The notes under the pieces: model-generated | Told to the model about the DNA's origin: nothing | Database searches by the model: none | Seen by the model: only the letters and a program-made list of their open reading frames with translations | In this document: one piece after another, positions 4,311 to 9,764 of the stretch | Layout of the letters: each line of letters starts with the position of its first letter | How positions within the stretch are numbered: position 1 is the stretch's first letter | Program-made: the position numbers and the translations under genes | Source of the DNA: a bacterium | Lineage (GTDB): Bacteria > SM23-31 > JAUVVT01 | Length of the DNA: 9,764 nucleotides | NCBI GenBank assembly: GCA_030616165.1 | Contig: JAUWXV010000138.1 | Span: forward strand, 1-9,764 | Direction: 5' to 3'

Positions 4311-6533
4311 ATGCGCTCAATTTTTAAATTATCAGTTTTGTTAATTGTGATTTTCTGGCCAGGATATATAAATGCTGGAGAAGTAAAGATAATTGATTCC
4401 AGACATTACAGCAATGTTTTTGGGGAGATGCGGAATTATAGGATTTTTTTGCCTCCTGGGTACGATAAGAATCCCCAGAAAAGATATCCAGTAATTTATT
4501 TTTTTCATGGGTGGTCTCAACGATACTTTGGGATAACAAGAGGGAGTGGATTTGATAAAGGAAATGACAATGACGGTGATAATATAGCGAATTTTGTTGC
4601 TGAACACGATGTTATAGTGGTAAAATGGGACGGTTTTAATCTCCGCCCGGATGATGAATACTATCTTCGCCCATATAACATTAGTCCAGTTGAAACTTAC
4701 CGTCAGTTTCCGATCTATTTTCCAGAACTTGTTAAATATATAGATTCAAATTACAGAACAATTCCTGACAGGAGTCATAGAGCGGTTTCGGGATTATCTA
4801 TGGGTGGATTTATGACATTCTGGGTTGGGGGCAAATATCCACATTTAATTTCTGCAGCAGGAAATTTCTGCGGCTCCCCAGAATTTATGGTCGGTCCAAG
4901 AAAATTTCCTGTGGAATATCGACACATAGATATTTATAAAAACTACAATGGGATGAAACTCCGCTTAAATTTTGGCACAAAGGATTTTATTCGCTGTTAT
5001 CATAAAGACTTAAACAGAATTTGGACCCAGGTAATGGATAACTATGAATACGAAATATACGAGACTGCTCACGTAACTTGTGGACTTGGAGAGATGTTTG
5101 AATTTTTAATGAAAACATTTGAAAATTCTTCCCCTAAACCTAAAAAGTGGCATCATATTGACGTTTATCCTGAATTTTCAGTCTGGGGATATAATGTAAA
5201 TTCAGACCGTGACTTTCCGGGATTTACCATACTTGAAAATGTTAATAAAAGAGGATTTCGAACTTCTGTGAGGGAATTTCTCACCGATGGTGAACTTATG
5301 CCATTCGTTAATTTATATGTCACAACGACTCCAATTTATGGAAAAAATAGGGAATATATTGTCAATGACATAAATCTTACAAAAAATAAATCTGCTCAAT
5401 ATATTATTCAGAGTGACAATATCGGGAGATTAAAGATTCCGCTTGATGGATACCTCCATGAAATCGGAATCAATAAAAAAAGGGATATCCCAAACCTCTC
5501 TCTTGCATCTTTTGAAATAGATAATATGAATTGGGCAGCACCAATGAAAAATGAAAAAATTTCTATTAAATTATTGAATAAAGGGGGAATAAAAGTAGAT
5601 GGAGTTCGGGCAGAATTAAACGCAACAAGAAATAGTGTGAATATAATTGGTGGGGAATCGGAATTTGGAAGTATTGCTGTTAACGAAATAAAAAATTCAA
5701 AAACTCCATTTATTTTTTACGTTAATGCAGATAGCATTGAAATTGTAAAATTCAAACTTGTTATAAAAGACAAGGAAAATAGGAAATGGAGTGAGTTTTT
5801 TGAAGTTCCAATAAAGGTTTCTCAACCAGAATTTAAAAATATAGTAATTGCAGATGGGAAAAGATTTACTGTCGCAAGAGCCGGAACAAGCAAAACGACT
5901 ATTTCCCTTGGGGCTGGAAATGGAGACGGGGCTGCAAATCCTGGTGAATCTATTGCTATTCTTGTAAATGATCAGAATAACTACTGGCGAACTTATTTAT
6001 ATACCTCTGATAAATATGTGAATCCGGGTGGAATAAATCCGAGATTATCCGATAACTGGGGCAGTTATGACCATGTTGGAGGTTCTGCGAAATATTCTAT
6101 ACCAGTTATATCATCGGATTGTCCACAAAATCACATAATAGAATTTTTTGCAGAATACTGGCTTCCAGACTATCCTGATCATATCATAAAGCGGGGAAAA
6201 GTAATAATAAAAGTTACTGGGGAAGATCGAACACCTCCACAAGTGCGATGGGTAAAAATCCCGGGAGATAATATTATTCAAGCAAAAGTTTTTGACGGTG
6301 GAAAGATTGAATATGTTAAAGCTACCCTTAGATATAGAAATGACCCAAAAAAAATCTTTGATATTATATTAAATGATGATGGTATTGATGGAGATAGAAT
6401 AAAAGAGGATAATGTGTTTAGTAAAAAAATATCTGAGCAAAAATTTGGTTTGTATAATGTTGAAATAGAAACAGCCGATTTCTTAGGAAATAAAAGTATA
6501 GGAAAAATTTCTGATATTTTTACTTTATATTAA
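4311..6533 (+). CDS. secreted alpha/beta-hydrolase esterase (esterase D/feruloyl-esterase-like) with long beta-rich C-terminal region
   Basis: The 740-residue protein starts with a signal peptide (hydrophobic 7-20, cleavage likely after Ala22 in INA-G). Residues about 25-275 form an alpha/beta hydrolase of the esterase D type, the fold used by S-formylglutathione hydrolases, feruloyl esterases and enterochelin esterases. The visible features are an HGW oxyanion-side motif at 66-68, nucleophile Ser163 in GLSMGG (161-166), likely acid Asp225 in FGTKD, and likely His254 in TAHVTCG. All three triad members are in the expected order. The remaining ~460 residues look like several Ig/beta-sandwich modules. 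They include a GNGDGAANPGE loop (536-546) resembling repeats of surface proteins, and NDDGIDGD (688-695) in a final domain like those with D-D-G-x-x-G-D Ca-binding loops. No T9SS-type tail is present, unlike the first protein. GAGG-type Shine-Dalgarno at 4303-4306 supports ATG 4311. It probably hydrolyses an ester on an external polymer or peptide; substrate is unknown. Confidence 0.82.
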   Translation: MRSIFKLSVLLIVIFWPGYINAGEVKIIDSRHYSNVFGEMRNYRIFLPPGYDKNPQKRYPVIYFFHGWSQRYFGITRGSGFDKGNDNDGDNIANFVAEHDVIVVKWDGFNLRPDDEYYLRPYNISPVETYRQFPIYFPELVKYIDSNYRTIPDRSHRAVSGLSMGGFMTFWVGGKYPHLISAAGNFCGSPEFMVGPRKFPVEYRHIDIYKNYNGMKLRLNFGTKDFIRCYHKDLNRIWTQVMDNYEYEIYETAHVTCGLGEMFEFLMKTFENSSPKPKKWHHIDVYPEFSVWGYNVNSDRDFPGFTILENVNKRGFRTSVREFLTDGELMPFVNLYVTTTPIYGKNREYIVNDINLTKNKSAQYIIQSDNIGRLKIPLDGYLHEIGINKKRDIPNLSLASFEIDNMNWAAPMKNEKISIKLLNKGGIKVDGVRAELNATRNSVNIIGGESEFGSIAVNEIKNSKTPFIFYVNADSIEIVKFKLVIKDKENRKWSEFFEVPIKVSQPEFKNIVIADGKRFTVARAGTSKTTISLGAGNGDGAANPGESIAILVNDQNNYWRTYLYTSDKYVNPGGINPRLSDNWGSYDHVGGSAKYSIPVISSDCPQNHIIEFFAEYWLPDYPDHIIKRGKVIIKVTGEDRTPPQVRWVKIPGDNIIQAKVFDGGKIEYVKATLRYRNDPKKIFDIILNDDGIDGDRIKEDNVFSKKISEQKFGLYNVEIETADFLGNKSIGKISDIFTLY

Positions 6534-6795: not shown

Positions 6796-9450
6796 ATGGG
6801 AGTTCATGAAAAATTTCGTTTTAAGACATTTGAAGAATTAATTGAAAAAATAGAAGTATTAAATCTTGATATACCATATGACACTGATATAAGTATTTTA
6901 AAAAAACAAGTAAGATTTGGTTCATTTATCTGCCCCAATTCTCTATCTGTTCATCCTATGGAAGGATGTGATGGAGAAGCGGACGGTTCTCCTGGGGATT
7001 TGACTTTCAGAAGATACGATAGATTTGCCAGAGGAGGTGCCGGACTTTTGTGGTTTGAAGCAACCGCCGTAGTGCCTGAAGGAAGGGGAAATTCAAGACA
7101 ACTCTGGATTCATGATGAAAATGTTCATTTATTTGAAAAACTTGTAAAAAAGACTGAAGAATCGGCAGTTGATTCAATGGGGAGTACTCATCAGCCAATT
7201 TTAATACTTCAATTAACACATTCAGGGAGGTACAGTAAGCCATCTGGCAAACCAATGCCTATTATTGCACAACACTCTAAAATACTTGATAAATTTCATA
7301 ACTTGACCTATGAATATCCAATTATTTCTGATGAGGAACTTGATAGAATAAAAGAAAAGTTTGTTGAATCAGCCCATTTGGCTTATAAAGCAGGGTTTGA
7401 TGGAATAGATATAAAAAGCTGTCACGGCTATATTATCTCTGAACTGCTTGCATCTTTTACAAGAAAAAATAGCCGTTATGGTGGAGATTTTGAGAATCGT
7501 ATTAGATTTTTAGTTGAAACGGCAAATCAAATACGCTCGGAAATACCGGACTTTCTTATCACCTGTAGATTAAATGTGTTTGACGCAATCCCATTTCCTT
7601 ATGGATTTGGAGTCGATAAAGATGATTACAAAAAGCCTGACCTTACAGAACCGATTTCTCTTATAAAAGAATTAAAGAAATCAGGTATCACCGGTATAAA
7701 CGTGGCAGTTGGGAATCCATATTACAATCCCCATTATGAGCGCCCTTATGATACTCCAATAGCAGAGGGATATATACCGGATGAAGACTCGCTTGAGAGT
7801 ATTGCACGAATTATCCATATTAATAAGCAAATTAAGCAAAAATGCAATGATTTGACTATTATTGGAACGGGATTTTCATGGCTTAGACACTTTTTCCCTT
7901 ACATTGCCGCAGGTATGATAAAAAAAGGTTGCGTATCCATAGTAGGGCTTGGTAGAAATGCCTTTGCTTATCCTGATTTTGCAAAAGATATAATAAAGCA
8001 TGGTGAAATGGAGCCAACAAAGGTTTGCATATCATGTTCAGGATGTTCTCAGATTATGAAAGATGGAGGCAAAACTGGGTGTGTGATTAGGGATGCAGAT
8101 GTATATGCACCAATTTACAAAGAGGGGAGACTTAATAGTCCTGATGTTGTTAGAAAATTAGCTGAAATATGCAGAAATTGCGTAAATCCTACATGTGTAA
8201 TTGGCTGTCCTGCTGATGTTGACATACCGGGCTTTATAAGTGCCATTGCTGAAGGAAATGAAGAAGAATCATATAAAATTCTCCGAAGGAGCAATATGCT
8301 TCCAGAAATCTGTGCTTATATATGTCCAGTGGAGATTCAATGTGAAAAAGGCTGCATCCAGCGTTATCTTGGTGATGGTCCAATACCAATCAATTTACTT
8401 CAGAGGTATGTTTCAAGAAGGGCACGAAAAGAAGGATGGGAAATCGCTCCTTTTCCTGAAAAGACAACCAATAAAAATATTGCAGTTATTGGGGCTGGTC
8501 CATCCGGGATAGCATGCGCAATAAGACTCATAGAACTCGGACATAAAGTAACAATTTTTGATAGAGAAAAAAATCCCGGTGGACTTATTAAATATACTTA
8601 CCCGGAATATAAAATTTCAGATGAAACTATTGATAGCGAAATAAGTTTCCTTCTTTCAAAAGCAGAAAATGGAAGACTTTTTTGGCGACTTGGGAGAGAA
8701 ATTTCAGTAGATTATAATCTCGACAACATAATAAAAGAGGGATGCGATGCTGTTTATATAGCAGTGGGATTAATGAAATCTACTCCCCTGCCAAATGCCA
8801 AAAGACCTGAAAAAGGAGTTATAGAGGTTCTTTCTTTTTTGAGAGATATTAAATACAGCGATGGTATGCAAATTCCTTCGAAAATTGCTGTATTAGGAGG
8901 AGGGAACAGTGCAATTGATGCGGCGGTTGTCTCTAAAAAGCTAGGTGCAGAGGATGTTTATTTAATTTACAGAAGGTCTTTTGAAGAAATGCCTGCATTT
9001 CCTCAAGAAAGAGATAGGGCATTAAATGAAGGAGTAAAATTTTTAATTCTGACTCAACCACTCGATTATATAACAGATGAGAATAACATCCTGAAAGGAA
9101 TACTTGTTGCGCCGACACGCCTTGGTGAACCTGACCAATCAGGAAGAAGACAACCTCAAATTATACCCGACACAAAGTACATTGTGGAGGTTGACCTGGC
9201 AGTTGAAGCACTTGGACAGGTCTCATCTGATAATATAAATAGAATGTTTCCGAGTGTTAGATTCGATAAAAATGGATTGATAATCACCAGAAAGGGTAGT
9301 ACAGCAACAGAAAGAGAAGGTGTATTTGCAGGTGGGGATGTTGTTAATGGAGGTACAACCGCCGTTCAGGCTGTTGCCGAGGGATGTAAGGCAGCAGAAG
9401 AAATTCACAAATTTTTAAAAAGCAAAACAATTTCTTTCCAAAGAAAGTAG
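6796..9450 (+). CDS. OYE-family NADH:flavin oxidoreductase fused to a GltD/NfnL-like Fe-S/FAD/NADPH module
   Basis: The 884-residue protein has no signal peptide and should be cytoplasmic. Residues about 40-405 are an Old Yellow Enzyme TIM barrel binding FMN: HSGRYS at 142-147, HGY at 210-212 (Tyr212 aligns with the catalytic Tyr of OYE), and YGGDFENR. A cluster motif follows, Cys411, 414, 417 and 429, as in dienoyl-CoA reductase and trimethylamine dehydrogenase. Next is a GltD-type N-terminal domain with Cys459, 462, 467 and 471 (C-x2-C-x4-C-x3-CP) and Cys506, 510, 516 and 520 (C-x5-C-x3-C core), expected to hold two 4Fe-4S clusters. Then come the FAD motif GAGPSG (566-571), the NAD(P)H motif GGGNSA (701-706) with RR at 726-727 favouring NADPH, and the closing GGDVVNGGTTAVQA from 846. 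Electrons likely pass from NADPH through FAD and Fe-S to FMN and an activated C=C or related substrate. FadH-type enzymes (about 670 residues) lack the GltD N-terminal domain. Substrate unknown; fold assignments are firm. Confidence 0.9.
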   Translation: MGVHEKFRFKTFEELIEKIEVLNLDIPYDTDISILKKQVRFGSFICPNSLSVHPMEGCDGEADGSPGDLTFRRYDRFARGGAGLLWFEATAVVPEGRGNSRQLWIHDENVHLFEKLVKKTEESAVDSMGSTHQPILILQLTHSGRYSKPSGKPMPIIAQHSKILDKFHNLTYEYPIISDEELDRIKEKFVESAHLAYKAGFDGIDIKSCHGYIISELLASFTRKNSRYGGDFENRIRFLVETANQIRSEIPDFLITCRLNVFDAIPFPYGFGVDKDDYKKPDLTEPISLIKELKKSGITGINVAVGNPYYNPHYERPYDTPIAEGYIPDEDSLESIARIIHINKQIKQKCNDLTIIGTGFSWLRHFFPYIAAGMIKKGCVSIVGLGRNAFAYPDFAKDIIKHGEMEPTKVCISCSGCSQIMKDGGKTGCVIRDADVYAPIYKEGRLNSPDVVRKLAEICRNCVNPTCVIGCPADVDIPGFISAIAEGNEEESYKILRRSNMLPEICAYICPVEIQCEKGCIQRYLGDGPIPINLLQRYVSRRARKEGWEIAPFPEKTTNKNIAVIGAGPSGIACAIRLIELGHKVTIFDREKNPGGLIKYTYPEYKISDETIDSEISFLLSKAENGRLFWRLGREISVDYNLDNIIKEGCDAVYIAVGLMKSTPLPNAKRPEKGVIEVLSFLRDIKYSDGMQIPSKIAVLGGGNSAIDAAVVSKKLGAEDVYLIYRRSFEEMPAFPQERDRALNEGVKFLILTQPLDYITDENNILKGILVAPTRLGEPDQSGRRQPQIIPDTKYIVEVDLAVEALGQVSSDNINRMFPSVRFDKNGLIITRKGSTATEREGVFAGGDVVNGGTTAVQAVAEGCKAAEEIHKFLKSKTISFQRK

Positions 9451-9495: not shown

Positions 9496-9764
9496 ATGAA
9501 TGAAAAATTAAGAAAGAATGCAGAGGAAATTGTAAGAACTCTTACTGATAAGGGTTATATTGCATATTTTGCTGGTGGGTGTGTAAGAGATATGATTATG
9601 AGCATAGAGCCAAAAGATTATGACATTACTACTAATGCAAAACCAGAAGAGATAATCTTTACTTCATGTGGCACAGAATCAAATAATTTCGCAATTAAAG
9701 GCTTGGCCCATGTCAATCAGAGCAAGGGTAAGCATATCATAACTTCAGCTATAGAGCATTTTTC
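9496..9764 (+). CDS. chimeric open frame: N-terminus of tRNA CCA-adding enzyme joined in frame to a cysteine desulfurase fragment (partial)
   Basis: The frame is open from ATG 9496 to the window edge (89 full codons). Residues 1-53 are the start of a class II nucleotidyltransferase (CCA-adding enzyme/poly(A) polymerase head): GGCVRD at 27-32 and the metal-binding DYDI at 41-44, followed by TTNAKPEEI. That enzyme adds or repairs the CCA end of tRNAs. From about residue 48 the sequence matches NifS/IscS cysteine desulfurases: [15 protein letters not shown] (50-64), FAIKG (65-69) and HIITSAIEH (80-88), where His88 corresponds to the His that stacks on PLP. Neither half can be complete: the first lacks the rest of the head, neck and body, and the second lacks about 60 N-terminal residues. 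The NifS part is slightly richer in G+C (about 37% against 32%). No Shine-Dalgarno is visible; the start is 45 bp after the flavoenzyme stop. Both family matches are clear; whether the joint exists in the cell is uncertain. Confidence 0.85.
9634..9654 (+). other. junction segment between CCA-adding enzyme and cysteine desulfurase sequence
   Basis: Codons for N-A-K-P-E-E-I fall where the two families resemble each other. CCA-adding enzymes continue DYDIATxAxPEEV, and NifS/IscS proteins read [11 protein letters not shown]. Sequence before this segment fits only the first family and sequence after it only the second. The breakpoint therefore lies within or next to these 21 bases, as expected for a microhomology-mediated joint, either in the cell or in an assembly graph. 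Confidence 0.7.

Follow-up and report, generated by a model that had tools for sequence, protein, structure and literature searches.

The window analysed here is an entire contig of 9,764 bp (C267) from a draft genome of 343 contigs with a completeness of 90%. At positions 6796-9450 it carries a gene for an 884-aa protein that combines an Oxidored_FMN domain (Old Yellow Enzyme family FMN oxidoreductase) with a Fer4_20 / Pyr_redox_2 part resembling the glutamate synthase small subunit. G004, a genome of the same class, has the FMN part by itself, as a 453-aa frame (46% identity). The last frame of the window (9496-9762, + strand, 89 codons) remains open to the contig end without a stop codon in the ORF listing. 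Within this single frame, the start of a PcnB/CCA-type nucleotidyltransferase is followed by sequence from the interior of a NifS/IscS cysteine desulfurase, and three features are distinguished:

9496..9633, + strand: truncated gene for a PcnB/CCA-type tRNA nucleotidyltransferase, 5' end only (residues 1-46)
9634..9657, + strand: joint of 24 bases, whose translation NAKPEEII is common to both families in one frame
9658..9764, + strand: interior part of a NifS/IscS cysteine desulfurase gene, cut off by the end of the contig

The two assignments were obtained from independent Pfam and NCBIfam searches, and they confirm the preliminary description of this DNA, which had recognised both families in one frame without a stop. 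In the Pfam search, residues 23-54 match profile positions 1-32 of 126 of PolyA_pol (PF01743; E 8.9e-10), and residues 47-88 match positions 57-98 of 371 of Aminotran_5 (PF00266; E 1.4e-8). Among the NCBIfam profiles, the head matches the PcnB/CCA families TIGR01942 (E 3.2e-18) and PRK13299 (E 5.1e-15), and the tail matches DndA, NifS and IscS profiles (E 8e-16 to 1e-13, including TIGR03402 and TIGR02006). Each half's family match is far beyond chance. However, both halves are truncated, as had also been proposed. The first 54 residues are those of a PcnB/CCA enzyme and include both the GGCVRD and DYDI motifs, but the likeness ends there, leaving the score against TIGR01942 at 65.7 bits (cut-off 305.65). 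About three quarters of the head domain and everything C-terminal of it are missing, so that neither the complete PolyA_pol head nor the downstream RNA-binding part required of a PcnB/CCA nucleotidyltransferase is present. Similarly, residues 47-89 are those of a cysteine desulfurase, but the N-terminal positions (approximately the first 56 of the profile) are replaced and the remainder would lie past the contig end. Of the complete class-V aminotransferase fold, with PLP lysine and catalytic cysteine, that defines such an enzyme, the fragment covers profile positions 57-98 of 371.

The joint is located 107-131 bases from the end of the contig. Beyond the NAKPEEII stretch, which ends at 9657, only 107 bases are left, or approximately one short read. 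The earlier suggestion that the switch might be near a contig end is therefore borne out, since the stretch studied ends where the contig itself ends. The contig as a whole was also considered as a possible foreign member of the bin. This was rejected because its 721-aa transglycosylase has a near full-length counterpart (59% identity) in the only genome of the same family that was compared.

Relatives of the two halves were sought separately. An intact protein of 456 aa (L006) has 63% identity to the head, whose top match in the relatives search has 60% identity (G037). No relative of the head was found at E 0.001 in five other genomes of the class, and the corresponding cca/pcnB gene may be particular to the genus. 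Four of these five class mates each have one PolyA_pol-containing gene, evidently of another subtype. For the tail, NifS proteins from Chloroflexi, Margulisiibacteriota and Endomicrobium reach 74-83% identity, the highest value belonging to a Chloroflexi protein (L041), and the NifS found in six genomes of its own class reach 69% at most. As judged from this similarity, the tail is likely to come from another community member, although 43 residues are too few for firm placement.

The search of the assembly for intact cca and nifS genes that the preliminary description had recommended was successful in part. Two further nifS genes, both intact, are present in the genome (C286, 69% identical to the tail, and C55, 62% identical), and C160 carries a single intact Cca-type gene, which belongs to a different subtype. 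None of these three is a parent of the joint. Searches of the bin with the joint pattern, both exact and allowing 3 mismatches, and with the DNA of the tail recovered no parent: the 20-mer at the joint occurs exactly once, and the tail sequence is not repeated. The missing remainder of the cca gene and an undamaged version of the nifS seen in the tail were likewise not found in the bin.

The two Pfam matches overlap exactly at residues 47-54, NAKPEEII. It had been noted earlier that N-A-K-P-E-E-I resembles both families, and the shared peptide is real: other organisms carry the identical octapeptide at the aligned position of intact Cca proteins (seven loci, from Patescibacteria and others) and of intact NifS proteins (ten loci), and the frame in which it is read is the same in both. 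The comparison of bases around PEEI that had been proposed at the same time was carried out on relatives, by computing the longest exact DNA matches over 1287 cca/nifS pairs with codon-shuffled controls. The longest shared DNA falls on the NAKPEEII stretch and reaches 25 nt, between a cca gene of Nomurabacteria (L092) and a nifS gene of Bacteroidetes (L115); in the controls, no exact match exceeded 13 nt. Unrelated cca and nifS genes can therefore be identical over 25 bases at this stretch, and a short sequence common to both sides of the joint is thus found in relatives of the parents, which were themselves not located. With identity of this length, both genes can contain the same short assembler k-mer. 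Additionally, because both genes read the shared peptide in the same frame, a join at this point is automatically in frame, and therefore needs no selection.

Overall, the apparent fusion is very probably a mis-join of two unrelated genes by the assembler, which left a chimeric contig end. Contig ends that are mis-assembled, and may be chimeric, have been described as a problem in metagenome assembly (PMC4270193). We infer that the join originated in the assembler as follows. A cca/pcnB gene located 3' of the 884-aa oxidoreductase gene would have been under extension up to the 24 bases that encode NAKPEEII, where a nifS gene with an identical k-mer, probably that of another community member, was present in the assembly graph too. 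Both parents would carry the AATGCAAAACCAGAAGAGATAATC stretch, and the contig would have run on for approximately one read length into nifS and then stopped. If the whole octapeptide is shared, then the exact shared length of the true parents would be approximately 24 bases, a length that would matter only where the assembler works with short k-mers. The observation that neither parent is intact in the bin counts against such a mis-join. As in the chimeric ends described in PMC4270193, sequences of probably different organisms meet at the end of a contig or close to it; in contrast to those, the join here falls in an octapeptide shared by two unrelated families and is consequently in frame. 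The preliminary description had proposed either recombination or a mis-join at a short shared sequence, and the contig end and the shared peptide support that proposal; among its alternatives, the mis-join by the assembler is favoured, and recombination or deletion between adjacent genes is less so.

A genuine recombination or deletion within the organism, joining cca and nifS at the shared 24-base stretch and fixed in the lineage as a pseudogene or fused gene, is unlikely. The open frame is clean, the two halves are similar in GC content (0.31 and 0.38), and the loss would be tolerable given that an intact Cca-type gene and two intact nifS genes remain. However, the tail is unlike the NifS of its own genome and class, 24 bases are short for homologous recombination, and the event would need to coincide with a contig end to within approximately 130 bases. 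If such recombination did occur, then the outcome would also be a dead gene. It is more doubtful still that the joint is a chimera of library preparation, in which PCR or whole-genome amplification produced a joined molecule or read that then entered the assembly at the end of the contig. Such a chimera would have the same anatomy, with a short stretch in common and roughly one read length of tail before the contig stops, and PMC4270193 names an alternative of this kind for mis-assembled contig ends. However, it must persist in enough reads to be assembled, and it is separable from a join made by the assembler only by reads.

Finally, a functional two-domain fusion protein, already considered unlikely in the preliminary description, can be practically dismissed: although the frame is uninterrupted, each domain is broken off within its catalytic fold (profile positions 1-32 of 126, and from 57 of 371), which makes a working protein very unlikely. 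No second locus with both halves was present among those fetched (the best 80 of 346 relatives and the best matches in 41 whole genomes), and a literature search found no description of a cca-nifS fusion. One candidate for a second fusion (L040), with a match over residues 16-89, was rejected as an ordinary full-length NifS of 392 aa that had been aligned with a gap.

The apparent fusion is thus almost certainly ordinary. The case serves only as a warning, in that mis-joins at an eight-residue motif common to two unrelated families yield clean, open chimeric frames, which can pass for gene fusions in databases.

Elsewhere on the contig, two genes encode secreted proteins. The first (265-2052) is 595 aa in length and has a HELHHAIQ zinc-protease-like motif, as well as a weak match, below the cut-off, to the C-terminal sorting domain Por_Secre_tail. 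The second (4311-6533) is 740 aa in length and has an N-terminal esterase domain, together with approximately 500 residues without a Pfam match.
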